DNA from: an uncultured bacterium
GTDB lineage: Bacteria > Verrucomicrobiota > Lentisphaeria > Victivallales > Victivallaceae
Direction: 5' to 3'
DNA length: 44,597 bases
NCBI GenBank assembly: GCA_949297015.1
Contig: CASFRF010000081.1
Span: forward strand, 1-44,597
Notes under the pieces: model-generated
The model's database searches: none
Told to the model about the DNA's origin: nothing
Seen by the model: only the letters and a program-made list of their open reading frames with translations
Program-made: the position numbers and the translations under genes
Part shown: one piece after another, positions 25,295-43,226 of the stretch
Layout: each line of letters starts with the position of its first letter
Position numbering within the stretch: the stretch's first letter is position 1

Positions 25295-26010
25295 TGGCGG
25301 AAGCGAAGTCGAAGCTGCGGCATGTGGCGATCATCATGGACGGTAATGGGCGCTGGGCCCGGGAGCGGGGGTTGGAACGTTCCGCCGGACATCGTCAGGG
25401 CGCGGAACAGGTCCGGGTGGTGCTGGAGGCGGCGCAGGAGTTCGGTTTGGAGTATCTGACGCTGTACGCCTTCAGTACGGAAAACTGGAAGCGGCCGCCG
25501 CAGGAGGTGCTGGGGCTGATGAATCTGCTCTCGGAATTTCTGGATCGTCAGCTGCCGCAGCTGATGGAGAGGAAAATTCGCTTGAAGACGCTGGGGCGGA
25601 CCGACGGGTTGCCGGAAGGTCCCCGGCGGAAGCTGTTGCAGGCGATTGCGGCGACGGCGGAAAACCGGGGCGGCACGCTGGTTCTCGCTCTGAATTACGG
25701 CGGCCGGGCGGAGCTGGTCGATGCGGCGCGGAAGCTGGGCCGGGCCGTCGCCGCCGGCAAAGTGAATCCCGAAACGCTGGATGAGCAGAAATTTCGGGAT
25801 TTTCTCTACGACCCGGAGATCCCGGATCCCGATCTGCTGATCCGGACCTCCGGCGAGTTGCGGCTCAGCAACTTTCTGCTCTGGCAGCTGGCCTACTCCG
25901 AGCTCTATGTGACGCCGGTGCTGTGGCCCGATTTCGGCAGAAACGAGTTGGCCGAGGCGATCGCGGCATACGGCAGGCGCGACCGGAGATTTGGTGGTAT
26001 AAAGTCTTGA
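25294..26010 (+). CDS. uppS: Isoprenyl (undecaprenyl) diphosphate synthase
   Basis: UppS makes the long cis-prenyl diphosphate that becomes the lipid carrier for peptidoglycan and O-antigen. The 238-residue protein shows VAIIMDGNGRWARERG (catalytic D16), RSAGHRQGAEQVR, YLTLYAFSTENWKRP and the late PDLLIRTSGELRLSNFLLWQLAYSELYVTP. The start ATG overlaps the gmhA stop in TGATG, with GAGGACAGG before it; a GTG one codon earlier is possible. cdsA follows after 96 bases that hold a phased repeat array. Confidence 0.96.
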   Translation: MAEAKSKLRHVAIIMDGNGRWARERGLERSAGHRQGAEQVRVVLEAAQEFGLEYLTLYAFSTENWKRPPQEVLGLMNLLSEFLDRQLPQLMERKIRLKTLGRTDGLPEGPRRKLLQAIAATAENRGGTLVLALNYGGRAELVDAARKLGRAVAAGKVNPETLDEQKFRDFLYDPEIPDPDLLIRTSGELRLSNFLLWQLAYSELYVTPVLWPDFGRNELAEAIAAYGRRDRRFGGIKS

Positions 26011-26032
26011 AAAGTAAAGAATTTTTTATATT

Positions 26033-26072
26033 TGACGGATATTTGACGGATATTTGACGGATCAATGACGGT
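26033..26072 (+). repeat. 11-base phased TGACGG array between uppS and cdsA
   Basis: Four TGACGG copies start at 26033, 26044, 26055 and 26066, exactly 11 bases apart. The first two full units are TGACGGATATT. The copies lie on the coding strand, 23 bases after the uppS stop. The 11-base step places TGA in all three frames. No inverted end copy is seen here, unlike the other three arrays. Confidence 0.9.
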
Positions 26073-26106
26073 AAAGATAACGAAGGAGTAAGATGGAGCG
26101 CTGCAG

Positions 26107-26970
26107 ATGTTGAAGTACAGAATTCCCAGTTTCGTGCTGTTGCTGGGCATTTTTCTGCTGTTGATTTTCTGGCGCGAAGGGGGTCCGTGGATTTTTGCAG
26201 CCGTATCGGCGCTGCTGGGTTACGGGTTGGTCAAAGAGGGGATGACGCTGCTGGGAAAACTGGGACTGGCAGGATTTCCACGGTTGTGCGGATGGTTTGC
26301 GGCGGCCTTTTTTCTGCTTCTGGGATGGGTTTTTCTGGCGCAGAGGACGGCGGAAGTTGCGTATGATTTTCTGTGCGGGTTTCAATTCGGGGTGCCGCTG
26401 GTGTTGATTTTCGGCGGTTGGCTGGCGCTGTTGTTCTGTCATCGGAATCATACTCTGTTGCCGAAGCTGGCCGGGTCGCTGGGGGGCTGGTTGTTCCTGA
26501 TGGCTCCGGTGTTCTTTCTGTCCATGATCTATTACCAGGCCGGCGCGTTCGCCCTGCTGTTTCTGGTGCTGGTGACCAAGATGATGGATACCGGCGGCTA
26601 TATCGTCGGAATGTTGTCCAACCGCTGGCTGCCGGGCGGCAACCATAAGATCGTACCGGCATTGAGTCCCGGAAAGTCCTGGGAGGGTGCTGGCGGCGGC
26701 GTGATTTTTTCGGTGGGCGCGGGTTTTCTGCTCTACGGCTTGAATCTGGCGCCGGCGGGACTTACCCCGGCGACGGTGCTGCTCTGGTCGCTGCTGCTGG
26801 CGCTGGGTTCGTTTGCCGGGGATCTGACGGAATCGGCGCTGAAACGGGCCGCCGGAGTCAAGGATTCCGGTACGATCATCCCGGGGATGGGCGGGGTGTT
26901 CGATGTCTTGGACAGTTTTCTGTATAACGGAATTTTGTTTTTTGTGATCAGCAAAATGCCGATCCAGTAG
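26107..26970 (+). CDS. cdsA: Phosphatidate cytidylyltransferase
   Basis: CdsA makes CDP-diacylglycerol from phosphatidate and CTP, the branch point to phospholipids. The 287-residue integral membrane protein has about eight hydrophobic helices and the family signature ESALKRAAGVKDSGTIIPGMGGVFDVLDSFLYN near the C-terminus, plus KMMDTGGYIVG and SPGKSWEG. GGAG lies eight bases before ATG. An earlier AAGGAG serves an ATG at 26093 that gives only six codons overlapping the cdsA start, so it may be a coupling leader or chance. It follows uppS, as in many bacteria. Confidence 0.95.
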   Translation: MLKYRIPSFVLLLGIFLLLIFWREGGPWIFAAVSALLGYGLVKEGMTLLGKLGLAGFPRLCGWFAAAFFLLLGWVFLAQRTAEVAYDFLCGFQFGVPLVLIFGGWLALLFCHRNHTLLPKLAGSLGGWLFLMAPVFFLSMIYYQAGAFALLFLVLVTKMMDTGGYIVGMLSNRWLPGGNHKIVPALSPGKSWEGAGGGVIFSVGAGFLLYGLNLAPAGLTPATVLLWSLLLALGSFAGDLTESALKRAAGVKDSGTIIPGMGGVFDVLDSFLYNGILFFVISKMPIQ

Positions 26971-26986
26971 TAGTGGAGGAGGAGAG

Positions 26987-27478
26987 ATGACTGATAAGAA
27001 GGAGAAGATCCTGGCCCTGCTGCAGGAAAATGCCAGAATGAAACTTTCCGAACTGGCGGTCCGGTCGGGCTGTACGCCGGAGGAAGCGGAACAGTTGATT
27101 GCGGAACTGGAAGCGGAGGATGTGATTCGAGGCTTCACTGTTATTTTGAATGAGGACGCGGTCCAAAGCACCAAGGTCCGGGCCCTGATCGAGGTGAAGG
27201 TCACCCCCCGGCGCGAGGGAGGATTCGATCAGACGGCCAAGCGGATCGCCCGTTTCCCGGAGGTGATCGACCTCTATCTGGTCTCCGGCAGCTACGATCT
27301 GCAGCTGATGGTGGAGGGCGATTCCTTGCAGGAGGTGGCCTCCTTCGTCTCGGCTCGACTGTCAACAATCGAAGGAGTACTCTCCACCTCAACGCTGTTT
27401 CTGTTGAAAAAGTACAAAGAATCCCACAAGTTGATGAACGATGACGAAGAATATGAAAGACTCAAAATCTGTCCGTAG
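26987..27478 (+). CDS. Lrp/AsnC family transcriptional regulator
   Basis: A 163-residue regulator. The N-terminal winged helix-turn-helix (about 1-55, KEKILALLQENARMKLSELAVRSGCTPEEAEQLIAELEAEDVIRGFTVILN) is followed by the ligand-binding RAM domain (about 65-150, ALIEVKVTPRREGGFDQTAKRIARFPEVIDLYLVSGSYDLQLMVEG). GGAGGAG precedes the ATG. It overlaps the downstream aminotransferase gene by 38 bases, so the pair is almost certainly co-expressed. The same pairing exists in Bacillus AlaR/AlaT, so it likely senses an amino acid and controls that enzyme. Confidence 0.93.
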   Translation: MTDKKEKILALLQENARMKLSELAVRSGCTPEEAEQLIAELEAEDVIRGFTVILNEDAVQSTKVRALIEVKVTPRREGGFDQTAKRIARFPEVIDLYLVSGSYDLQLMVEGDSLQEVASFVSARLSTIEGVLSTSTLFLLKKYKESHKLMNDDEEYERLKICP

Positions 27479-28634
27479 ATCCTACGTTGCGGAGCATATC
27501 GCCGCGTTGCCGAAAAGCGGCATTCGAGTGTTTTTCGATCTGGTCAACACCATGCCGGGGGTGATCAGTCTGGGGGTTGGAGAACCTGACTTCACCACGC
27601 CCTGGACTATCCGCGAAAGCGGCATGTTTTCGCTGGAAAAGGGCCACACCAGCTACACCTCCAACCTCGGATTGCCCGCCTTGCGCCGGGAAATCTGCCG
27701 TTATGTGAGCGAGAATTATCAGGTGGAGTACTCTCCGGAGCGGGAGTGTCTGGTCACCATCGGGGTCAGCGAAGCGCTGGACCTGGCCATGCGCGCACTG
27801 ATCAACCCGGGGGACGAGGTGATCTATACGGCGCCCTGTTTCGTCTCCTATCCGGCGGAGATCCGGATGGCGCACGGGGTTCCGGTGGTGCTGGAGACCC
27901 GTCGCGAGGACGCCTTTTCGATGACCGCCGCGGCATTGGAAAAGGTGATCACTCCGAAAAGCCGGGTGTTGCTGATCAATTTTCCCTGCAATCCAACCGG
28001 CGCGGTGCTGGACGAGCAGGAGATGGAGAAAATCGCCCGGATTGCGATTGATCGCGATCTGGTGGTGGTCACCGACGAAATCTATTCGGAGCTGCGTTAC
28101 GAAGGGCGGCACCGGTCGATCGCCTCGCTGCCCGGCATGCGGGACCGGACGATTTTCCTGCACGGATTTTCCAAAGCCTTCGCCATGACCGGGTGGCGGG
28201 TCGGCTACGCCTGCGGTCCGCATGAGATCATCGACGCCATGATGAAGATTCATCAGTACGCGATCATGTGCGCCACCACCACCTCGCAGGAGGCGGCGCT
28301 GGAGGCGCTGCGCCGGGGTCGATCGGAGGTGGAACGAATGCGTTCCTCCTATCTGGAACGGCGGAATCTGATTGTGGACGGCTTCAACCGGATCGGATTG
28401 CCCTGTCTGCTGCCAAAAGGGGCGTTTTACGCCTTTCCGGCACTCGATGGAACCGGGCTTTCGAGCATGGATTTCGCCCGGACGCTGCTGGAAAAAGAGC
28501 AGGTGGCGGTCGTTCCCGGAAATGCATTCGGTGATTGCGGGGAGGGTTTCATCCGCTGTTCCTATGCCGCCTCCTCGGGGGATATCATTGAAGCGCTGAA
28601 TCGGATGGACCGGTTTTTGAATACGCTCAAATAG
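27441..28634 (+). CDS. PLP-dependent aminotransferase, class I (AlaT/PatA-like)
   Basis: A 397-residue fold-type I aminotransferase. Features are VISLGVGEPDFTTP, YTSNLGLPALRREI, VTIGVSEALDLAMRAL, NFPCNPTGAVL, VVVTDEIYSELRYEG, LHGFSKAFAMTGWRVGYACGP (with the PLP lysine) and GEGFIRCSYAAS. It probably moves the amino group among alanine, glutamate or related amino acids; exact substrates cannot be read. The ORF start at 27441 lies inside the regulator gene; ATG at 27453 is an alternative. Its link to an Lrp-type regulator suggests amino-acid responsive control. Confidence 0.92.
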   Translation: MTKNMKDSKSVRRSYVAEHIAALPKSGIRVFFDLVNTMPGVISLGVGEPDFTTPWTIRESGMFSLEKGHTSYTSNLGLPALRREICRYVSENYQVEYSPERECLVTIGVSEALDLAMRALINPGDEVIYTAPCFVSYPAEIRMAHGVPVVLETRREDAFSMTAAALEKVITPKSRVLLINFPCNPTGAVLDEQEMEKIARIAIDRDLVVVTDEIYSELRYEGRHRSIASLPGMRDRTIFLHGFSKAFAMTGWRVGYACGPHEIIDAMMKIHQYAIMCATTTSQEAALEALRRGRSEVERMRSSYLERRNLIVDGFNRIGLPCLLPKGAFYAFPALDGTGLSSMDFARTLLEKEQVAVVPGNAFGDCGEGFIRCSYAASSGDIIEALNRMDRFLNTLK

Positions 28635-28644
28635 GGCTGATTTT

Positions 28645-28675
28645 CGCCGGTCCGGCGAGGCTTTGCGGACCGGCG
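28645..28675 (+). other. Stem-loop between the aminotransferase and the 882-residue protein gene
   Basis: A perfect 10-bp GC-rich stem (28645-28654 with 28666-28675) with an 11-base loop lies 10 bases beyond the aminotransferase stop. No T-run follows on the + strand, so it is more likely an mRNA processing or stability element than a terminator. Confidence 0.5.
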
Positions 28676-28694
28676 CAACCGCGTAAAGGGGATC

Positions 28695-31343
28695 ATGAAC
28701 GGGGGTAGATGGCTGTTGGCGGGGTGTCTCCTGTTGCTGGGCGGCAGTCTGGTTCTGGAGTACTGTTGCCCGGAGTCGGAGCCGCCCGGCCCGCCGGAAG
28801 AGCAAGTGACGTTTCCGGTGCCCGACGGAGCCGTTCCCTACGGCGGGAGTTTGGAACTGCAGGCTGAAAAAGTCTCCCTTACTGACCTGAAACCGCCGCC
28901 GGAGTTGGAGCTTTCGGGGTTGGCCGTTGCGCTGCAACCCTATTTGCTGGAACAGTTGACCTGTTCCGGCATCTGGCGCGGACAGCCGTTTACCGCTGAA
29001 TTTCAGGCGGGGGGGAATTTGCGACTGCAACTCGGCGCGCAACGTTTTTCCGGCGAAGTCGACTGGACGGGCAAACGGTTGCTGCTGCGTTCGCGGCGGG
29101 TAAATGGGGCTTTTTTGCGACAGTTTCCGGGGGATTTTCCGCTCGCCCTGCAACAGGCTCCGTCGGAGTCGGGCTGGGAAGCCGAGGTCCGGTGGAAGCG
29201 GAACTGGAGTTTCGACCGCTTGCTGCTGCGTTCGGCTGAAGCCCGGCCTGCGGCGTGGACGTGGACAGTCGCAGGGCTTCGGCTGGAGACGACCGGTCGG
29301 GCGGAATTCCGGCGCGTCGGACCGGCGTGGAGTCTGGAATTTTCGGATCCGGTCCGGATCGGTGAGCTCGGGCGGCTGGAGCATTGCCGACTGGAGGGCG
29401 ATCAGAGCCGGACGGAGGAGCTTTTTTCCGGAACTTTCATCCCCGCCGGGGGCGGCACGGGCCTGCCGCTGAAAGGCACGTTGGACCGCATCAAAGGTGC
29501 GCTGCGGATTCAAAATTCCGAATTGCCGCCAGGGACGGTGCTTCCTTTCGGGAATTATCGGCTGGAGAGCTCCGCGGCTCATCTGAAGTGGGAAAATGAC
29601 GGCTGGACGATTCACGGGCAGGTGGCGCGTCTGACCGGGGAGACCCCCGCCGCACTGGTGACCGGGGGCCGCTTTGAACTTGCCGGAACGCTCCGTCAAA
29701 AAACTCCCGAAAAACGGTTCAAACTGCAAGTGACGGATTCACAAATTGCTGGCGGGGAAGGTGATTACGCAAAAGTAGGAAAAATGACGGTGGAAATTGA
29801 CGGATCTGCCGTCAAGACGGTTCTGGAGCTTGAGAAGGGTGTTTTGAAGGGAACGGATTTTCGTTCCGGCCGGCTCGAAATAGAGACTTCTTCCGGGAAA
29901 CCCCCGGTCCGGCGCGGCGTGCTGGAGCACCCTGCCCGGCGGTTCGGAAGGTGGCGCTTGACGGGCGACCGGGCGACCGTGGACGGCGCCGGTCAGCGCT
30001 GGGAATCGGTCGCCGCCGGTTGCGGGCCGTGGCTGCTGCGCGCGGCGACCGCGGCGATCGGGGACGGGCGTTTCACCTTGCCGCAGCCGACACTGCAGGG
30101 TGACGGCTGGACTGGGACGGCGCGGACGGTGGCCGTTGACGGGGCGCGTCTGAGCGGGTGCGGATTTCAACTGAAGTCCGACGACTCCGCGATCGCGGTC
30201 ACGGCCGAACAGGCGGAATTCGGCGTTGACGGCTGGACGATTCAGGGCGGAACCTTCCGCGGCGACGGCGTGACCGTCTCGGGCATCCGGTTGACCCGCC
30301 GGGAGAATCAGGGGTCGTTGGAGACCGCCGCCGTGACCGGCGCGGGACCGCTGATCGCTTCGCTCAAAGCGGAGTTGACCTGGCTGCCCGGCGCACTGAC
30401 CTTCCGGGGAACCGCCGCCGCGCCGATCGTGGGCGGATCGGGTTTATACTTCACCGGACGGACCGGATCCGCTCGGCTGCCGCGGCAGTTCACGGCGGAT
30501 TTCAAACTGCCCGCGCTGGAGCTGCGGACGCCGGTGCCCGCGCGAGATTTGAATTCCGCTTTGCCCGCGGTGACCGTCTCCGGACAGCTGGCGGGGGAGG
30601 GGACGCTCTCCTTTCGCGAGGGACACTTCCGGGTCGGCTATCGTTTGCAGCTGACCCGGGGAACGCTGACCGGGACCGGAATCCGGGCGGGGGAGGTCCG
30701 GGCGACGCTCTCCGCGTTTCCGGTTCCGGCGCGGCTCGAGCTGGAGCTCCGGTCGCCGCTGCTGGAACTTGAAGGCCTGAGCGCCACCGACGTCCATGTG
30801 GATCTGATTCGCGAAACCGATGCCTGGCTGCTGCGGGCGGCCTCCGACCGGGGGTTGCTGGGGCGGCGTCAACTGCTCGCGCCGGTGGATCCGACGCAGG
30901 AGGAGGTGGTGCTGGCCGTCACGGCCTATCCCGCCGGGGAACTGTATCGGGAACTGGGCGTCGCCGGGGCGAAACTGACCGGGACCCTCTCCGGGACGCT
31001 GCGCTACCGCCGGAGCGCGGAGTCCACACCCCGCTGGCGATTGACCGGAGGCGAACTCGTCGGTTCCGGCTTGCGCTGGCAAGGTCTTCCGGGCCCTCTG
31101 GAAAAGACGGCTAATGCCGAATTCGCCGCCGCGCTGCTGGCCGATTTCCGCGCCGACCAGCTGCAACTGGCGTTTCAGAACGGGACGCTGACGTTGACCG
31201 CCGAGGGCGCTCCGGCGGCGCCGCTCCCCTGGGAACTCGGGCCCGATCACCGGTTCCGGCCCTCCGCCAACGGCGAAAAGCATTTTGATCAGCGTTTGAA
31301 AATAAGTTGTAAGATGTTTCTGGATCAGAAGTTGGGAAAGTGA
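28695..31343 (+). CDS. Large AsmA/YdbH-like envelope protein
   Basis: An 882-residue protein with one N-terminal membrane helix (about 5-22) and a long beta-rich body. Many similar segments repeat, for example LLLRSRRVNGAFLRQFPGDFPLAL, LETTGRAEFRRVGPAWSLEFSDPVRIGEL and SGQLAGEGTLSFREGHFRVGYRLQLTRGTLTGTGI. This alternating pattern with one anchor and about 880 residues recalls YdbH/AsmA-type bridge proteins that move phospholipid between membranes, but I recognise no exact motif. AAGGGGATC precedes the ATG. A short lower-GC patch (29700-29830) lies inside. The stop TGA starts a phased repeat. Confidence 0.6.
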   Translation: MNGGRWLLAGCLLLLGGSLVLEYCCPESEPPGPPEEQVTFPVPDGAVPYGGSLELQAEKVSLTDLKPPPELELSGLAVALQPYLLEQLTCSGIWRGQPFTAEFQAGGNLRLQLGAQRFSGEVDWTGKRLLLRSRRVNGAFLRQFPGDFPLALQQAPSESGWEAEVRWKRNWSFDRLLLRSAEARPAAWTWTVAGLRLETTGRAEFRRVGPAWSLEFSDPVRIGELGRLEHCRLEGDQSRTEELFSGTFIPAGGGTGLPLKGTLDRIKGALRIQNSELPPGTVLPFGNYRLESSAAHLKWENDGWTIHGQVARLTGETPAALVTGGRFELAGTLRQKTPEKRFKLQVTDSQIAGGEGDYAKVGKMTVEIDGSAVKTVLELEKGVLKGTDFRSGRLEIETSSGKPPVRRGVLEHPARRFGRWRLTGDRATVDGAGQRWESVAAGCGPWLLRAATAAIGDGRFTLPQPTLQGDGWTGTARTVAVDGARLSGCGFQLKSDDSAIAVTAEQAEFGVDGWTIQGGTFRGDGVTVSGIRLTRRENQGSLETAAVTGAGPLIASLKAELTWLPGALTFRGTAAAPIVGGSGLYFTGRTGSARLPRQFTADFKLPALELRTPVPARDLNSALPAVTVSGQLAGEGTLSFREGHFRVGYRLQLTRGTLTGTGIRAGEVRATLSAFPVPARLELELRSPLLELEGLSATDVHVDLIRETDAWLLRAASDRGLLGRRQLLAPVDPTQEEVVLAVTAYPAGELYRELGVAGAKLTGTLSGTLRYRRSAESTPRWRLTGGELVGSGLRWQGLPGPLEKTANAEFAAALLADFRADQLQLAFQNGTLTLTAEGAPAAPLPWELGPDHRFRPSANGEKHFDQRLKISCKMFLDQKLGK

Positions 31344-31368
31344 CGGAACTTTGCCGGATGATCCGTCA
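31341..31368 (+). repeat. Short 11-base phased array at the stop of the 882-residue protein gene
   Basis: TGACGG (31341, including the TGA stop), TGCCGG (31352) and inverted CCGTCA (31363) stand exactly 11 bases apart. It is a shorter form of the arrays at 18.2 and 41.7 kb, with two direct units and one inverted unit. Confidence 0.7.
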
Positions 31369-31412
31369 AAAAAATCCGGAAGAAGGATGGCTCTTTTTCC
31401 CGGCTTTTGACG

Positions 31413-31440
31413 TTGACATCGGTGAAAATACGGTTACGTT
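31413..31440 (+). promoter_or_regulatory. Candidate promoter of the moxR operon
   Basis: TTGACA (31413-31418) and TACGTT (31435-31440) are 16 bases apart, 63 bases before the moxR start, in a 160-base gap. The -35 is perfect; the -10 is weak. Confidence 0.5.
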
Positions 31441-31503
31441 AACTACAGGATCTTTCCATCGGCTCTGGAAAGCGGGAAATTCGGGGGCAGGGGCGGACAC
31501 ACG

Positions 31504-32535
31504 ATGCAGGCACAGGAGTTGATCGAGCGGGAGACGCTGCTCCGCGGCGCGGAGCTGGCCCGGCGCATTTTGCACGAACTGGACCGGGCGCTGCTCGGGC
31601 ACCATGAGCTGCACCGTCTGGTGCTGATCGGTTTTCTGAGCCGGGGGCATCTGCTGCTGGAAGGGCTGCCCGGCATGGGCAAAACCGAATTGATCCGGAC
31701 CCTGAGCCGGTTGCTGCAGCTGCCCTTCAACCGGGTGCAGTTCACCCCCGACCTGATGCCGGGCGATATTCTCGGAACCAACATCCTTCAGGAGCGCGTC
31801 GACGGCCGGCGGGAGCTGGTCTTCCGACCCGGTCCGATCTTCACTTCGCTGCTGCTGGCCGACGAGATCAACCGCGCTTCCCCCAAAACCCAGGCCGCAT
31901 TGTTGCAGGCGATGCAGGAGTCGGAAGTCACCATGTTCGGCGAGACCCGGCCCCTGCCGCGGCCCTTTCTGGTCATGGCCTCCCAGAATCCGATCGAGCT
32001 AGAGGGCACCTACCCGCTGCCCGAAGCGCAGCTGGACCGCTTTTTGTTCAAGCTGCAGGTCGGCGGCAGTTCCGCGGAGACGCTGGCCGAAATCGTTCGT
32101 TCCCGGCGCCGCGGCGAGGTTCCCTCCTCCGACTGGACGCTCAGCCGCGCGGAACTGGACGAGCTGTTTTCGCTGATGGACCGCGTGGTGCTGCCCGATG
32201 CCGTAGCCGATTATGTCGGGCGGCTGATCGCCGCCAGCAATCCCGATGACCCGGCGGCGCCGGAGGAGGTTCGGCGCTTTGTCGCCTACGGCGCCTCGCC
32301 CCGGGCGGCGATCGCCACCGCCGAAAGCGCCCGGGCGGCGGCGTTGCTGGCGGGGCGCCCGGCAGCCGGATTTGACGAGGTGGCGCAGGTGCTCCCCGCG
32401 GTGCTCAACCACCGGTTGATTCTGAATTACGCCGCCCGGCTGGAGGGAATCTCCACCGGGGCGATTATCGAAAAGCTGCTGCGGAGCATCGATCCGGCCG
32501 GCGTGAATCTGCGTTCCGGGGTGATGGTGTCATGA
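31504..32535 (+). CDS. MoxR-family AAA+ ATPase
   Basis: A 343-residue AAA+ ATPase of the MoxR group, chaperone-like proteins that help mature or activate partner complexes. Features are Walker A GLPGMGKTE (54-62), Walker B LLLADEINRASPKTQAALLQAM (116-137), sensor 1 MASQNPIELEGTYPLPEAQLDRF and a C-terminal lid. MoxR genes usually stand beside a DUF58 gene; here the next gene is a membrane protein. A DUF58 C-terminus occurs 13 kb away at the window edge. Four further genes follow with overlaps or gaps of 2 bases, indicating one operon. Confidence 0.92.
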   Translation: MQAQELIERETLLRGAELARRILHELDRALLGHHELHRLVLIGFLSRGHLLLEGLPGMGKTELIRTLSRLLQLPFNRVQFTPDLMPGDILGTNILQERVDGRRELVFRPGPIFTSLLLADEINRASPKTQAALLQAMQESEVTMFGETRPLPRPFLVMASQNPIELEGTYPLPEAQLDRFLFKLQVGGSSAETLAEIVRSRRRGEVPSSDWTLSRAELDELFSLMDRVVLPDAVADYVGRLIAASNPDDPAAPEEVRRFVAYGASPRAAIATAESARAAALLAGRPAAGFDEVAQVLPAVLNHRLILNYAARLEGISTGAIIEKLLRSIDPAGVNLRSGVMVS

Positions 32536-34166
32536 GCTGGAAACATGGATTCGGAGTCCTGCTGCTGCTGTTGTTTGCGCTGCTTCAGGCCGCGGGACAG
32601 GCGGTGTTCCAGGATGTGGAGTTGCAGATCCTGCCGCGACTGACCAACCGCTGGAACCTTACTTTCGGATACCGGGAGCAACCGCTCTTGCTGATCAACC
32701 ACGGCCCGGAAACCCGCCGGGTCCGGGTCGAGATCGAAAATCAGGCCTCTACCGCGACGGTTCTGCCGCCGGGCGCAACCCGGGAGGTTCGGCTGTTGTT
32801 CTACGGAATGCGGCGTTCCGGGCCTTCCCCCCGGATCAAGCTGACCGTGGACGGCGACGCGATGCCGGAAGAGCTGGAGCAGGAGTGCGCCGTGCCGTAC
32901 CGGCGGGATCCGCGTTTCGGCACCAGTCAAGAGGCGATTCTGGTCTCTCAGGGGGCCAGCAGTTTCAGGAATGAACCGTTCAAGAGCTGTGAACTGTTGA
33001 CCGCGGAGCAGCCGGTGGAGAACTGGAGCCCCCGCCGGGAGGCCTATTCGGAGTTCAACGCCGTGCTTCTCACCTCCGCCGAGTTCGAGCGCCTCTCCCC
33101 GGAGGTAAAGCGGGCGCTCGAAGAATATCAACGGTTGGGCGGCGTGCTGCTGCTGGCGGCGAAGACGAAGACGCTGAGCTGGAACCCGCTGGGGTTGGGC
33201 GGTGGTGCCGAATTTCCGGAGAATGCCGGGGCGAGGAAGCTGGTTTCGAGCCGCTGGACACAGGTCATTTCCTCGTTGCAGGCCATGACGGTGAAGGCGA
33301 AAATGCTTCAGCAGCGGAATCGGGAGTTGAAGGATTTCGGCAGGACGCTGGTTCCGGAACGGGATTTCTGGTTGATCCTGATCTTGCTGACTCTCTTTGT
33401 GCTGGTGGTCGGTCCGCTGAATTTCTGGTTTTGCGCGCGGCGGAAGGCGCTGTCGGCGCTGTTCTGGACCACGCCGCTGATTTCACTGTTCTTTATCGGT
33501 TTGATGCTGGGGCAGATTGTTCTGAGGGAGGGGCTGGTCACCCGGGTCCAGGTGGCGGTGCTGACCCGGCTGGAGCAGGGAGAATCACGGGCGCTCACGG
33601 TGCAGGGACAGGGGATTTTCGCCACCTATCCGCCCGAAGAGCTGCGCTTTTCGGAGTCGGCGCAAGTTGAGTTCGGCGAACTGGGGCGGACGACCGGGGC
33701 CCGGCTCGGCGTGGTGGACGGTCTGCGCTTCACCGGCGCCTGGGTGAGTCCCCGGACGCCGCTGCTGTTGACGCTGCGCAAGAGTGAGGTCCGCCGCGAA
33801 AAACTGCTGCTGGAGGCCGATTCCGGCGATGCGCCGCGGGTGGTCAACGGCCTTGGCGCCGAGATCGTCAAGCTGTACTACGTCGCTCCTGACGGCCGGG
33901 CGTTCCGGAATCGGGAGCCGATCGCCGCGGGAGCCGCCGCCGAGTTGACGGCGGCGCGGAGGGACAACGGGTCCATGGATTGGCATACCTGGTGCCAGCA
34001 GATGCTGGCGGGGGAGATGCCGGGGCAATTCGAGGATCTCCAGGTCCAGCGCGGCGAATATCTGGCGGAGTTGAAAAGCTCCCCCTTTGCCGAGCTTGGA
34101 TTTGAGGTGAACCATCCCGAATGGATCCGGGCCCTGGTGAGCGGGCGGCTGGAGGAAGCCCCATGA
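32532..34166 (+). CDS. Membrane-anchored protein of the moxR/ABC operon
   Basis: A 544-residue protein I cannot name. It has a signal peptide (about 1-22), a beta-sandwich-like region (about 30-130), a Rossmann-like segment (YSEFNAVLLTSAEFERLSPEVKRALEEYQRLGGVLLLAA, about 174-212) similar to GldG/DUF4350-type domains, two membrane helices (about 277-325, WLILILLTLFVLVVGPLNFWF and WTTPLISLFFIGLMLGQIVL) and a long soluble end. It overlaps moxR and the ABC ATPase gene by four bases each (ATGA). Placement with an ABC ATPase suggests it works with that protein. Confidence 0.7.
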   Translation: MSWKHGFGVLLLLLFALLQAAGQAVFQDVELQILPRLTNRWNLTFGYREQPLLLINHGPETRRVRVEIENQASTATVLPPGATREVRLLFYGMRRSGPSPRIKLTVDGDAMPEELEQECAVPYRRDPRFGTSQEAILVSQGASSFRNEPFKSCELLTAEQPVENWSPRREAYSEFNAVLLTSAEFERLSPEVKRALEEYQRLGGVLLLAAKTKTLSWNPLGLGGGAEFPENAGARKLVSSRWTQVISSLQAMTVKAKMLQQRNRELKDFGRTLVPERDFWLILILLTLFVLVVGPLNFWFCARRKALSALFWTTPLISLFFIGLMLGQIVLREGLVTRVQVAVLTRLEQGESRALTVQGQGIFATYPPEELRFSESAQVEFGELGRTTGARLGVVDGLRFTGAWVSPRTPLLLTLRKSEVRREKLLLEADSGDAPRVVNGLGAEIVKLYYVAPDGRAFRNREPIAAGAAAELTAARRDNGSMDWHTWCQQMLAGEMPGQFEDLQVQRGEYLAELKSSPFAELGFEVNHPEWIRALVSGRLEEAP

Positions 34167-35101
34167 GAGTCGAGGTGAATCATCTGGTCCGGCGCTTCCA
34201 GCGGACGTTGGCGGTGGACGACGTCTCGTTTACGCTGGAGCCGGGGTGTCTCTTCGGCTTTGTCGGACCGAACGGCGCCGGGAAGACCACCACCATCCGG
34301 ATCATGGCCGCGCTGGACGAGGCGACTTCGGGGGATGTCTGTTACGACGGGGTTTCGGTCAGCGATTACCCGGACGAGGTCCGGCGGGTGGTCGGCTACA
34401 TGCCCGACACGCTGCCGGAAAACGCCGATTTGCGGGTCTGGGAATATCTGGATTTCTTCGCCCGGGCCTTTCAGTTGCGGGGCGCCCGGCGGCGGCGGAC
34501 ACTTGGAGAGATCGAGGAGTTCGTCGGAATCGGTCCGCTGCGCGAAAAATTTCTGAATCAACTCTCCAAAGGCATGAAACAGCGGGTGGCGCTGGCCCGG
34601 GCGCTGCTGCACAACCCCTCGGTGCTGATTCTGGATGAACCGGCGGCGGGACTCGATCCGCGGGCCCGGCTGGAGCTGCGCGATCTCCTGAAAGTGCTGG
34701 CGACGCAGCGGAAGACGATCTTTTTGAGTTCCCATATTCTGTCCGAACTGCAGGATATGTGCGACGGCGCGGTGATCATCGAACGAGGCCGGATCCTGTC
34801 GGCCGGAACCTTCAGCGCACTGGCCGAGGGCCGGACCCGGGATCCGGAGCAGGGGGGGCGGATCCGGCTCACCTTGCTGCGCGATCCGGATCCGGTGTTG
34901 AAATTTGCGCTGGAGCAGCCACAGGTGCGCGGCGGACGGCGGATCGGCGCCAATCAGCTGCAACTGGAGTTCAGGGGGGGCGACGCCGAATGCGCGGCGC
35001 TGATGGTCGCGCTGTTTCAAAGCGGCGCGCCGATTACGGAATTCCGGCGGCAGGAGTTCGGGCTGGAGGAGCTGTTCATGAGTATGACCGGAGGGAAATA
35101 G
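34163..35101 (+). CDS. ABC transporter ATP-binding protein (GldA/NatA-like)
   Basis: A 312-residue ABC ATPase. Walker A FVGPNGAGKTTTIRIM, Q-loop VGYMPDTLPE, signature NQLSKGMKQRVALARALLHNPSVLILDEP with Walker B, and H-loop FLSSHILSELQDMC are intact. The signature LSKGMKQR is typical of the GldA/NatA (drug/gliding/sodium) group. The start is ATG at 34163, in ATGA overlap with the previous gene; an earlier in-frame start lacks homology. No ABC permease with six helices is in the operon, so its membrane partner is uncertain. Confidence 0.9.
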   Translation: MRVEVNHLVRRFQRTLAVDDVSFTLEPGCLFGFVGPNGAGKTTTIRIMAALDEATSGDVCYDGVSVSDYPDEVRRVVGYMPDTLPENADLRVWEYLDFFARAFQLRGARRRRTLGEIEEFVGIGPLREKFLNQLSKGMKQRVALARALLHNPSVLILDEPAAGLDPRARLELRDLLKVLATQRKTIFLSSHILSELQDMCDGAVIIERGRILSAGTFSALAEGRTRDPEQGGRIRLTLLRDPDPVLKFALEQPQVRGGRRIGANQLQLEFRGGDAECAALMVALFQSGAPITEFRRQEFGLEELFMSMTGGK

Positions 35102-35103
35102 AG

Positions 35104-36381
35104 ATGGCGGGATGGTGGTGTCGGGTCGGGCTGCCGCTGCTGGCGGTGGCGCTCGGACTGTGCGGATGTGCGACCCCGGAACCGGGTTCGGTTCCGGTGC
35201 CGGAGCCGAAAGCGGCGGAGACGGAGGCGCCCTACCACCCGGCGGCGCGGCTGGCGGCGATGATGGAGATTTTGCATCAGAACTACGCCGACGCTTCGCG
35301 CGTCAGCTACGAGCGCTTGCTGGAGGGGGCGCTCCGGGGGATGGCGCGGGAGCTCGATCCCTACAGCGGCTATCAGCCGCCGCGGGAGTTTCAGGAGACG
35401 CAGCGGCTCTTTTCCGGACAGCGCGAAGGGTTGGGGTTGACCATCGCCAAAGATGAGAAGCAGCCGCTGCAGGTGCTCTCGGTGCTCGCGGATTCGCCCG
35501 CCGCCCGGGCCGGCGTGGAGCCGGAGGACCGGATTCTGGCGATCGACGGCGCCCCCACCGCGGATCTGACGCTGCAGGAGTGCCTGGCGCGGCTGCTCCG
35601 GAAGTCCCCGGCGGAACGGACGCTGCGGATCCGGCGGAACGGCGAGGCGGAGCCCATCACGCTCCGGCTGCACCTCGGCGCGTTCGTGGTTCATCCGGTG
35701 CCGGGGAACGCTTTGAAACTCTTCCCCGGCGGCATCGGTTATCTGAAAGTGGAGATGTTCAACGAGGCGACCCCCAGGGAGTTCCGCATTGCGCTCAAAC
35801 AGTTGCAGGAGCGGGGAATGCGCGCGCTGATCCTCGATTTGCGCGACAATCCCGGCGGACTGGTGCAGGGGGCGGCGGCGCTGGCCTCCCACTTTCTGAA
35901 GCCGGACACGGAGGTGATCACCGCGGTCGGCCGCCGGGATCCGGGCGAGACGCTGCGGACCGGCGAGGCCGATCCCGCGCTCTACGAGCTGCCGCTGGTG
36001 GTCCTGATCAACGAGCGCAGCGCCAGCGCCGCGGAGATTCTGGCCGGGGCGCTGCAGGATCACGGCCGCGCCCGCCTGGTCGGCTCCCGTTCCTTCGGCA
36101 AGGGCTCCATTCAGCGGGTGCTGACCCTGCCGGAGGGCGGCGCGCTCAAATTCACCATCGCCCGGTACCGGACGCCGGGCGGGAAGATGATCGACGGCTC
36201 CGGGCTGCAACCCGACGAGACGGTGGAGCTGACTCCGGAACAATCCCGGCAGCTGCTGCGGCAGCGTCAGATCCACCCCGGCGAGATCGAGCCGGAGACG
36301 GAGCACCCGGTGCGCGACCTTCAACTGGAAAAGGCGCTTCAACTTCTGGAACAACCGGATAAGGAGGAAGAACAAACATGA
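35104..36381 (+). CDS. S41 C-terminal processing peptidase lipoprotein
   Basis: A 425-residue protease of the CtpA/Tsp family. An N-terminal lipoprotein signal is likely (LALGLCGC, modified Cys 22). A helical N-domain, a PDZ domain (about 105-180, GLGLTIAK and SPAARAGVEPEDRILAIDG) and the S41 core follow, with LDLRDNPGGL, the nucleophile S306 in NERSASAAEIL and the base K333 in GSRSFGKGSIQ. It probably cleaves envelope proteins at their C-termini. GGAGGG precedes the start two bases after the ABC gene. The frame is open further upstream inside the ABC gene, but that is not the start. Confidence 0.92.
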   Translation: MAGWWCRVGLPLLAVALGLCGCATPEPGSVPVPEPKAAETEAPYHPAARLAAMMEILHQNYADASRVSYERLLEGALRGMARELDPYSGYQPPREFQETQRLFSGQREGLGLTIAKDEKQPLQVLSVLADSPAARAGVEPEDRILAIDGAPTADLTLQECLARLLRKSPAERTLRIRRNGEAEPITLRLHLGAFVVHPVPGNALKLFPGGIGYLKVEMFNEATPREFRIALKQLQERGMRALILDLRDNPGGLVQGAAALASHFLKPDTEVITAVGRRDPGETLRTGEADPALYELPLVVLINERSASAAEILAGALQDHGRARLVGSRSFGKGSIQRVLTLPEGGALKFTIARYRTPGGKMIDGSGLQPDETVELTPEQSRQLLRQRQIHPGEIEPETEHPVRDLQLEKALQLLEQPDKEEEQT

Positions 36382-37181
36382 ATCGGACCCGCTGGCTGTT
36401 GCTACTGGCGCTGGTGGCGGTTTCCGCGCTGGCGGTGATCCTGTACTGGCGGGCGGAGCCCTCCAGTCCGGATTCGCACGCGGACGAGGTGGCCGCGGCC
36501 TTTCTGGAGGCGCTGGACCGGGGCGAGCTGGAGACGCTGCAAACGTTGTCGACGCTGCCGGAACTGCAGCTGAAGTACCTCAACTTGAATCGCGAAACGC
36601 TCGGCGCCCGTCACGCCCGGCGGGTGTTGAAACGGGAGTTGTTGCGCCAGGGAGCCAAATTCGGCGCCTATCTGGAGTACGAGTCCAACTACGAGAACGC
36701 GCCGCGCATCCGGGAGTCTTTGACCGTGCTGGGCGACCAGGTGGTGGCCGCGCGCTTCTTCTACCCGCAGCTGCCGCGGTTGACACCCCGGACCTACGCC
36801 GCGCTGCCCGAGGAGGCCCGGGCCAAGGTCCAGCTGGCGACCCGCGCCTACGATCAGCTGAGCCGGAACTTCTTCGACGGCATCACCGCGCGCGACACCG
36901 GCTGGATTCAGCGCGGGGTCTTTCAGCGGATCCGCAACTTCCACCAGCGCTTCGGCGTGCCCAAGACCCGCAGTCTCGGCACCGAAACCCGGCAGGAGAA
37001 AAGCCTGCCCGGCGCCGCCGCCATGTCCGTTTTGCGGGTGGTCAACAAAACCCTCTATGAGAACGACAAGGGGTCCTGGCGGGGCGAGGAGGTGGTCTAC
37101 CTGGTCCGCGACGGCAGCGCCCGGAAGCCGCAGTGGGAGGTCTACGGCTTCGAGCTCAAGTCCCCGGAGCGGGTTCCCTGA
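36378..37181 (+). CDS. Hypothetical membrane-anchored protein, unrecognised
   Basis: A 267-residue protein with an N-terminal membrane helix (about 5-25) and a soluble exported part. A stretch VAAAFLEALDRGELETLQTLSTLPELQLKYLNL suggests a small cystatin/NTF2-like start, but no family is recognised. It overlaps the S41 protease gene by four bases (ATGA), with AAGGAGG upstream, so it is the last gene of the moxR operon. Its last 40 bases overlap the end of the convergent gene on the other strand. Confidence 0.75.
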   Translation: MNRTRWLLLLALVAVSALAVILYWRAEPSSPDSHADEVAAAFLEALDRGELETLQTLSTLPELQLKYLNLNRETLGARHARRVLKRELLRQGAKFGAYLEYESNYENAPRIRESLTVLGDQVVAARFFYPQLPRLTPRTYAALPEEARAKVQLATRAYDQLSRNFFDGITARDTGWIQRGVFQRIRNFHQRFGVPKTRSLGTETRQEKSLPGAAAMSVLRVVNKTLYENDKGSWRGEEVVYLVRDGSARKPQWEVYGFELKSPERVP

Positions 37182-41619: not shown

Positions 41620-41693
41620 GGCCTCTCCCCGGAATCCGGAAGTGACGGCTCTTTCGTCTCCGTTCCGTCACCGATCCGTCGTTTCCCCGTCAT
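41616..41693 (-). CDS. Possible 25-codon leader ORF between sugar ABC ATPase and permease
   Basis: ATG at 41693 (GAGG eight bases upstream) opens 25 codons, MTGKRRIGDGTETKEPSLPD followed by SGERP. They end with TGA overlapping the permease ATG. It contains the whole phased repeat array. The coupling geometry is good, but the sequence is low in complexity and may be chance. Confidence 0.25.
   Translation of the reverse strand: MTGKRRIGDGTETKEPSLPDSGERP
41643..41692 (-). repeat. 11-base phased TGACGG array between sugar ATPase and permease genes
   Basis: On the minus strand: TGACGG (from 41692), CGACGG (41681), TGACGG (41670), AGACGA (41659) and inverted CCGTCA (41648), all exactly 11 bases apart. 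This is the same four-plus-one layout as at 18.2 kb. A separate TGACGG at 41732-41727 contains the TGA stop of the ATPase but is not in phase (40 bases away). Confidence 0.85.
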
Positions 41694-41729
41694 ATTTATA
41701 ACCTCTTTGTTTTCAGCGATAAACATCCG

Positions 41730-43226
41730 TCACTCCTCGACCGCAGCCAGTTGCATGACCTCCTCCGGGGTGGTCTTGGCGGTCTCCCGTTCGGCGACCA
41801 GCCGACCCCGCCGCATGACCAGCAGCCGCTCGGTGATCCCGAACAGTTCCGGCAGGTCCGACGAGATCACCAGCACCGCCTTGCCCCGGTCCGCCAGTTC
41901 GTTGAGCAGCGTGTAGATCTCCCGCCTGGCCCCCACGTCGACGCCCCGGGTCGGTTCGTCCACGATCAGAATTTCCGGATCCAGCGGCAGCCAGCGCCCG
42001 AGCAGCAGCTTCTGCTGATTGCCGCCGGAAAGCGACGCGGCCGGATCCTCCGGATCGCGCCACTTGACCCGGACCGCCTCCCCGCAGCGCAGCGCCAGCG
42101 CCCGCTCCCGCTGCGGCGCAATCCGGAATCTCATCCCCACCCGCGGATAGCACGGGAGCGCCAGATTCCAGCTGCAGGGAAGATTCACGCACAGCCCGCT
42201 CCGGCGCCGATCCTCGGTGACCAGCCCGATGCCGGCGTCGATCGCCGCCCCCGGCGCGGCGAACCGGACCTCGCGCCCCCGGAGCAGAATCCGCCCGGCG
42301 GTCGGCCGGACCAGCCCGAACAGCACCCGCGCCAGTTCGCTGCGTCCGGCCCCGATCAGCCCGGCCAGCCCGGTGATGGTGCCGCGCCGCAGCGCAAAGG
42401 AGATGTCGGAGATGCCCTCGGCGGAGGCCAGCTTTTCGACTTGCAGAATCACCTCGCCGGGATGCGGTTCGCGCCGCGGATAGAAGTCGGAAAGTTCGCG
42501 CCCGACCATGGCTCCGACAATCGCCGGAATCGTGAGTTCCCGCGCCGGGGCGGTGTGGACCATCTCCCCGTCGCGCAGCACGGTCACGACGTCGGCCAGC
42601 GCCATGACCTCCTCCATCCGGTGCGAGATGTAGATGATGGCCAGCCCGTCCTCCCGCAGCTGCCGGATGATCGCGAAGAGCCGCTCCGCCTCCGCCTCCG
42701 ACAGCGAGGAGGTCGGCTCATCCATCACCAGAATCCGGGCCCGCCGGTGGATCGCCTTGAGCAGTTCGACCACCTGACACTCTCCCACCGGCAGCTCCCG
42801 GATCCGCGCCTCCGGATCCAGCCGGAAGCCGTAGCGCGCGATCAGTTCGGCGGTCCTCCGGCGCATTGCCGACTGGTCCAGCCAGGGACCCCGGCGAAGT
42901 TCCGCGCCCAGAAACAGATTCTCCGTCACCGTAAGATCGGGCGCCAGATCGAGCTCCTGATAGAGCATCGAGATCCCCGCCGCCAGCGCCTCGCCCGGAC
43001 GCGCGAAGGTCTGCCGCACGCCGTCGAGTTCGATAAATCCGGCATCGGGCGGGTAGACGCCGGCCAGAATCTTCATCAGCGTGGATTTGCCCGCGCCGTT
43101 CTCCCCGCAGAGCGCGTGCACGGTCCCCCCCGCCACCTCCAGATCGACGTTGTTCAGCGCCGTCACCGGGCCGAAGCGCTTGGTGACGCCGCACATCCGC
43201 AGAAGAGTCCGCCGCCGGTCGCTCAT
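41730..43226 (-). CDS. Sugar ABC transporter ATP-binding protein, double ABC domain (RbsA/MglA-like)
   Basis: A 498-residue protein with two fused ABC domains. The first has GENGAGKSTLMKIL, degenerate signature LPVGECQVVELLKAI and Walker B ILVMDEPTSSLSE. The second has altered Walker A GLIGAGRSELARVL, signature LSGGNQQKLLLGRWL and Walker B ILIVDEPTRGVDVG. A weakened second site is normal in the RbsA/MglA group. It powers uptake with the permease and binding protein. It lies three bases after the binding-protein gene. Its stop is the TGA of a lone TGACGGA. Confidence 0.95.
   Translation of the reverse strand: MSDRRRTLLRMCGVTKRFGPVTALNNVDLEVAGGTVHALCGENGAGKSTLMKILAGVYPPDAGFIELDGVRQTFARPGEALAAGISMLYQELDLAPDLTVTENLFLGAELRRGPWLDQSAMRRRTAELIARYGFRLDPEARIRELPVGECQVVELLKAIHRRARILVMDEPTSSLSEAEAERLFAIIRQLREDGLAIIYISHRMEEVMALADVVTVLRDGEMVHTAPARELTIPAIVGAMVGRELSDFYPRREPHPGEVILQVEKLASAEGISDISFALRRGTITGLAGLIGAGRSELARVLFGLVRPTAGRILLRGREVRFAAPGAAIDAGIGLVTEDRRRSGLCVNLPCSWNLALPCYPRVGMRFRIAPQRERALALRCGEAVRVKWRDPEDPAASLSGGNQQKLLLGRWLPLDPEILIVDEPTRGVDVGARREIYTLLNELADRGKAVLVISSDLPELFGITERLLVMRRGRLVAERETAKTTPEEVMQLAAVEE

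Follow-up and report, generated by a model that had tools for sequence, protein, structure and literature searches.

A four-unit TGACGG array with a spacing of 11 bp lies on the coding strand in the gap between uppS and cdsA (26033..26071) of the window, by which we mean the whole stretch of 44,597 nucleotides that was analysed, and it appears to be one instance of a motif whose arrays are concentrated around the GC-skew origin in two genomes. The hexamers start at 26033, 26044, 26055 and 26066, the last one ending at 26071, and are separated by the 5-base spacers ATATT, ATATT and ATCAA. Upstream lies uppS, encoding undecaprenyl diphosphate synthase (25291..26010, plus strand; Pfam Prenyltransf), and downstream lies cdsA, of the CTP-transferase family (26107..26970, plus strand; Pfam CTP_transf_1). 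The initial annotation had described four copies at these positions between the two genes, with identical spacers in the first two units and no inverted end copy. This description was borne out by exact matches at all four positions, by the spacer sequences, by the Pfam matches of both neighbours and by the absence of CCGTCA between about 25700 and 26400. When up to two mismatches were allowed, the TGACGG-N5-TGACGG pair gave 15 matches in the window against a shuffle mean of 6.26, and 15 or more were reached in none of 100 shuffles. The exact pair occurred 15 times in the 2.2-Mb genome (G000) and the reversed pattern not at all, while arrays of four units are expected about 2e-8 times given the window's own TGACGG frequency. 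The four units at the uppS/cdsA junction are thus genuine and far beyond chance.

With one mismatch allowed, triple arrays were found at five places in the G000 genome, three of them inside the window, and the earlier claim that the uppS/cdsA array is the same element as the other two arrays of the window was supported. The second array (18182..18231, minus strand) lies between convergent genes and comprises four units at 18226, 18215, 18204 and 18193 plus one inverted unit at 18182; the TGA of the first unit serves as stop codon to the minus-strand gene that precedes it. The third array (41643..41692, minus strand) is degenerate, with TGACGG at 41687, CGACGG at 41676, TGACGG at 41665, AGACGA at 41654 and an inverted TGACGG at 41643, so that in each of these two arrays the inverted unit stands at the low end. 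A single TGACGG unit on the minus strand (41727..41732) contributes its TGA as the stop to the gene that precedes the third array; by reading, this gene encodes an ABC-transporter ATP-binding protein. No Rfam family reached its gathering score in the window. Elsewhere in the window, an inverted CCGTCA comes after the TGACGG at the stop of an 882-aa gene (31341-31368), forming a possible hairpin without a T run; a TGACGG-N5-TGACGG pair within coding sequence (742-758) looks like a chance coding match; and a 21-bp tandem repeat of 3.4 copies (3522-3592) has a G+C-rich unit and a period that is a multiple of three.

The uppS/cdsA locus was read in G000 and 29 relatives; two of the 30 loci were not orientable, leaving 28 readable ones. 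Non-coding TGACGG units behind uppS were found in five of these, namely four units in G000, five with uneven spacing in G016, TGACGG-TAACGG-TGACGG in G007, one unit in G015, and in G018 one unit that is the uppS stop itself. Three further loci carry TGACGG inside cdsA by reading, and in most readable loci the genes abut without any unit. In G048 and G050, uppS and cdsA are separated, yet one array follows uppS and another precedes cdsA. In some fragmented genomes, such as G014, no array was present on the contig carrying uppS. Positions of arrays are mostly not conserved between genera, with the exception of uppS/cdsA, and the recurrence of an array after uppS or before cdsA in other genera, even where the genes lie apart, speaks against a locally young array. 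The initial annotation had named a fixed length in relatives and a lack of similar repeats elsewhere in the genome as grounds for abandoning its reading; neither was found, the unit number at this junction ranging from 0 to 5 and differing between genera.

Among 41 genomes, comprising G000 and members of its family and order, the TGACGG-N5-TGACGG pair was present in 27, with 158 pairs in total compared with 22 for the reversed control. Triples occurred in 13 of 78 family genomes, with none in the control, and in 14 of 387 genomes of a phylum sample. Nine of these 14 belong to the family, including G000, two to one other family of the order (G338 and G407) and two to a different family in the class (G345 and G270), and the last is a G/C-rich case (G302). 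In G345 (C86:11022-11180) and G270 (C138:7810-7901), TGACGG lies in near-identical 11-bp tandem copies with nearly constant spacers, unlike the arrays described here. Judged from these genome sequences, TGACGG-N5-TGACGG is a motif common to the order and not a private young slippage array. A viral or mobile origin was also considered; 64 viral stretches carried a triple against 29 for the reversed pattern, but their spacers were T- or C-rich and almost never A-rich, and they were taken as unrelated.

The spacing of the units is sharply defined and equals one helical turn. In samples of 1.13 Mb, same-strand TGACGG pairs were spaced 57 times by 11 nt, 30 times by 22 and 7 times by 33, with four pairs at 10 nt and two at 12, whereas reversed control pairs were found once at 12 and never at 10, 11, 22 or 33; spacings of 8, 14, 17 and 20 nt were absent or single for TGACGG. 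An unbiased scan of every hexamer outside genes, at lags 7 to 40 and with a listing threshold of 3 or more pairs, placed TGACGG/CCGTCA at lag 11 first in the samples from G000 and G007. In G009 and G018 it also ranked first in the samples close to the origin, with small counts (5 and 4), and it was not among the pairs listed at that threshold in the distal samples. The spacer is rich in A across 101 pairs, with A frequencies by position of 0.64, 0.42, 0.71, 0.66 and 0.35, and the outer flanks of the end units are A/T-rich as well, as if every unit were a full site. Unit positions are not equally conserved as in a simple tandem repeat; the hexamer is fixed and the spacer columns hold 0.14-0.71 bit. 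The search pattern itself fixes the hexamer, and independent support for its constraint comes from units with one mismatch at lag 11, which numbered 47 against 22 per control lag. Most of this excess was due to TAACGG (12 against 0.75) and TGACGA (9 against 1.0), the enrichment of TGCCGG being less clear (9 against 3.9). The hexamer also occurs as an inverted pair in hairpins of the form AAAAGTGACGG-loop-CCGTCACTTTT at loci L238, L245 and L248 (G048, G050 and G016), which are terminator-like on both strands and often have another TGACGG about 46 nt off. A further string, AAGCTCAA or TTGAGCTT, directly precedes the first unit in many arrays, mostly those of genus g17 (L082, L110, L127, L128 and L247), and may be part of the array element.

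Arrays were placed on the chromosome in two near-complete relatives, G009 (one contig, 3.2 Mb) and G018, fragmented genomes not being placeable. In the whole G009 genome, 10 of the 11 rows of pairs with a spacing of 10-12 bp lie at 2.026-2.323 Mb, where the sign of the GC skew changes from minus to plus at about 2.072 Mb and dnaN is located at 2.104 Mb. These 10 rows are no more than 260 kb away from the skew minimum (P = 1.2e-7), as are 9 of 10 after merging of near hits (P = 6.8e-7). When TAACGG and variants like it are included, the interval 2.025-2.324 Mb takes in 13 of 15 arrays, the other two being at 0.46 and 1.66 Mb, in a count that covered the proximal 400 kb fully but only 400 kb of the remainder. 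In G018, the skew switches near 1.67-1.68 Mb, and 8 of 10 merged arrays of exact 11-nt spacing are found no more than 260 kb from the skew origin (P = 7e-7), with a weaker signal when all spacings of 10-12 are included (8 of 20 rows, P = 7e-4). Both origins are backed by gene direction and by third-position skew taken strand by strand, and the 16S gene of G018 at 1.79 Mb is directed away from the skew origin, i.e. co-directional with replication. In a third genome, G027, 10 of 14 rows lie on contig C9, which also carries dnaN. Taken together, these results demonstrate that the arrays are concentrated around the GC-skew origin in G009 and G018, their sites extending more than 200 kb from it.

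In both genomes dnaA lies more than 1 Mb from the skew origin (G009:C1:536227-537561 and G018:C1:3045473-3046792), and dnaN no more than about 40 kb, so the origin calls rest on skew, gene direction and the G018 16S gene and not on dnaA. The available excerpt of PMC10197239 notes that the origin is not always found at dnaA. Clustering at the terminus was ruled out by the sign of the skew, gene direction and the direction of the 16S gene. Motifs of the KOPS kind are oriented relative to the replication strand, and such an orientation was ruled out for the arrays by their mixed strands to the right of the G009 origin.

The ParB profile TIGR00180 had no match in 27 of the 41 genomes, including G007, G009, G027 and G000, which is only 83% complete; 14 genomes gave some match, three of them (G016, G004 and G021) above the cut-off, and 10 of 14 control genomes were matched. 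Likewise, no parS with up to two mismatches was found in samples of 2.33 Mb, which took in the 400 kb surrounding the G009 origin as well as part of the origin region of G018, nor was any parS found in the window. At three mismatches there were five matches, which lies within the spread seen with 20 scrambled palindromes. Where families of the order have no arrays, ParB is mostly missing as well, and because some families show neither, the arrays are not a universal substitute for ParB and there is no simple mutual replacement.

The 11-bp phase, the fixed hexamer with its loose A/T spacer, the few variants and the placement between, beside and occasionally inside genes suggest a DNA-binding protein arranged head-to-tail, and the concentration at the origin suggests a role in origin handling. 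Our favoured, still tentative, reading is that the arrays are binding sites of a protein that loads head-to-tail in the origin domain, like a dispersed centromere or origin-organising site. With several to about a dozen per genome, each array would act as a double-stranded DNA site in which each 11-bp unit, made up of TGACGG and the A/T-rich 5-mer after it, offers a single contact site, and two to five units in the same helical phase would load, perhaps cooperatively, several copies of one sequence-specific DNA-binding protein. The arrays could in this way label the region around the origin as the place where partition, anchoring or condensin loading acts, in a clade that mostly lacked a ParB/parS signal; clustering at the origin in a group seemingly without the usual chromosome-partition protein makes them possible docking sites for an origin-handling protein. 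We are more doubtful of the bolder proposal that the order, having largely lost ParB/parS, uses a dispersed 11-bp-repeat centromere read by a protein unrelated to ParB, for example of the ribbon-helix-helix or winged-helix type, which would load condensin or move origins.

The closest working analogues appear to be parS with regard to distribution and parC of plasmid R1 with regard to the 11-bp direct repeats, and by the tests run the arrays would belong to neither. The parS sites of ParABS likewise are several short sites within some hundred kb of the origin, flexible in position between species (excerpts of PMC9178275 and PMC10197239), and origin concentration is shared by the arrays. However, parS is a 16-bp palindrome and the arrays are direct 11-bp repeats; that palindrome was not found in the samples, and most genomes of the order gave no ParB match. 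In R1, according to the accessible portion of PMC9426499, parC of the ParMRC system consists of 11-bp direct-repeat arrays and ParR requires at least two repeats. By the yardstick of that excerpt, the arrays here are direct repeats of about 10-20 bp in at least two units, and two-unit arrays are common, as with the ParR minimum, two being also the smallest array that was counted. In contrast to parC, they are chromosomal, dispersed over several hundred kb and without an adjoining parMR operon in the window; instead of a parM-parR operon, uppS and cdsA flank the window array, and mixed housekeeping genes, by reading, flank those elsewhere. A search of mostly open-access literature found no description of origin-centred 11-bp TGACGG repeats among the matches listed.

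The position of the arrays relative to genes bears on the main rival, which we consider unlikely, namely that they are operator arrays of a PhoB/OmpR-like (winged-helix) transcription regulator acting on 11-bp direct repeats, with the origin-near genes as its regulon. The geometry of a conserved 6-7 bp and a 4-5 bp A/T spacer in an 11-bp direct repeat is also that of PhoP/PhoB sites, as given in the available part of PMC4832192. Arrays are mostly intergenic, in sense orientation and often upstream of genes, and their recurrence after uppS or before cdsA in several genera would suit a regulon as well. Between co-directional genes, sense TGACGG was counted 22 times in G000 against 3.2 expected, 21 times in G007 against 4.5 and 25 times in the g17 sample against 1.5, with 3, 2 and 10 reverse hexamers, respectively. 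Genes were called with a simple home-made caller, which can err in single cases, around 36 arrays with TGACGG or TAACGG units at a spacing of 10-12; six lie inside genes, and 23 of the other 30 have both neighbours called. These 23 comprise 13 sense and one antisense array between tandem genes, four between convergent and five between divergent genes, the last two counts suggesting that promoters are not favoured. The sense orientation of 13 of the 14 arrays between tandem genes is not required of a centromere and thus weighs against our favoured reading. Nevertheless, the operator reading has to account for arrays between convergent genes and inside genes, and for those on contigs C29 and C7 that come as close as 12 nt to a following start codon or extend into it, where a promoter downstream of the array would seem to have no room. 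The flanking genes, read from sequence only, are mixed housekeeping genes, and it would be odd for a regulon to be limited to about 10-16% of the chromosome around the origin. The Pho box is TGACAG-like, and TGACAG is not enriched at lag 11 (1 against 0.67).

Less probable still is that the arrays are neutral or selfish short repeats, in which TGA-CGG stop contexts seed units, slippage multiplies them, and the origin bias comes from copy number or recombination. Of the 20 arrays preceded by a gene on the same strand, 12 have the stop of that gene inside a unit, and in eight of these it is the first unit; in G007, TGA followed by CGG is the commonest stop context (15 against 7.2 expected). Under our favoured reading, too, a TGA stop followed by CGG would be a ready-made seed unit, and we infer that the sense-strand bias and the stop-codon overlap arise because such a stop already equals one unit. 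Adjacent spacers were identical in 5 of 27 triples compared with 1.3 by shuffling (P = 0.007), which indicates that some array growth likely occurred by whole-unit duplication. The initial annotation had invoked such slippage on the basis of the like spacers at uppS/cdsA, and as a contributor, though not as the main story, it is supported. Its further suggestion of a younger stage of the same element did not hold up, given that TGACGG is kept while spacers drift, that variants at +/-11 bp are restricted and that arrays are concentrated at the origin. Against neutral repeats as a whole, the hexamer is kept even among arrays of only two units whose spacers differ, few variant forms of the unit occur, end units have the same A/T-rich flanks and the arrays are clade-specific.

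Replication control, in which an initiator, titration or methylation-reader array around oriC sets the timing of initiation and not segregation, appears improbable to us, even though it would draw on the same positional evidence as our favoured reading, including that of the window. The cumulative GC skew of the window has its minimum at 23-24 kb, and all called genes but one from 2703 to 24286 point leftward, whereas all from 24653 to 37181 point rightward. At this switch of skew sign, an intergenic gap (24287..24652) separates dnaN, encoding the DNA polymerase III beta clamp (23117..24286, minus strand; the start may be 24211), from a divergent SIS-domain gene. Of all 200-nt stretches in the window, the most AT-rich lies in this gap, as do three of the window's four DnaA-box-like sites, counted at up to one mismatch from the DnaA-box consensus TTATCCACA. 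G007 likewise shows a skew switch and two TTATTCACA sites beside dnaN. This gap is probably oriC, and by the skew switch, gene directions, AT-rich gap and DnaA-box-like sites the uppS/cdsA array would lie about 1.4 kb from it. DnaA-box clusters were looked for near the skew origins of G009 and G018 and were not found. A role in initiation is at odds with sites reaching more than 200 kb from the origin, with the dissimilarity of TGACGG to the DnaA box and with the lack of a link to the position of dnaA, apart from one array on the G000 dnaA contig.

Very improbable, finally, is an RNA-level element, in which sense UGACGG repeats would act on mRNA ends or on translation, since for all that it would suit the sense bias between tandem genes (22 against 3 reverse hexamers in G000, 21 against 2 in G007), the stop codon retained in TAACGG and the in-frame NTG-ACG-GNN-NNN-TGA at 11 nt, it leaves origin clustering unexplained and conflicts with CGACGG and TGACGA units, with antisense arrays inside genes of G009 and G018 and with arrays between convergent genes. 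Two specific forms were rejected: chained NTGA stop/start re-initiation over four-codon units, attractive in that 11 equals 12-1, because the other in-frame spacings of 8, 14, 17 and 20 nt are absent or single, and three-frame stop insurance for the same reason as well as for the CGACGG and TGACGA units and the intragenic antisense arrays.

An origin-centred motif this short and exactly phased, countable in any genome of the order, offers a direct handle on how bacteria without ParB/parS mark and separate their origins. Array DNA could be used as bait to fish out the binding protein, and the motif would provide an independent means of locating origins where, as in this clade, dnaA lies elsewhere.
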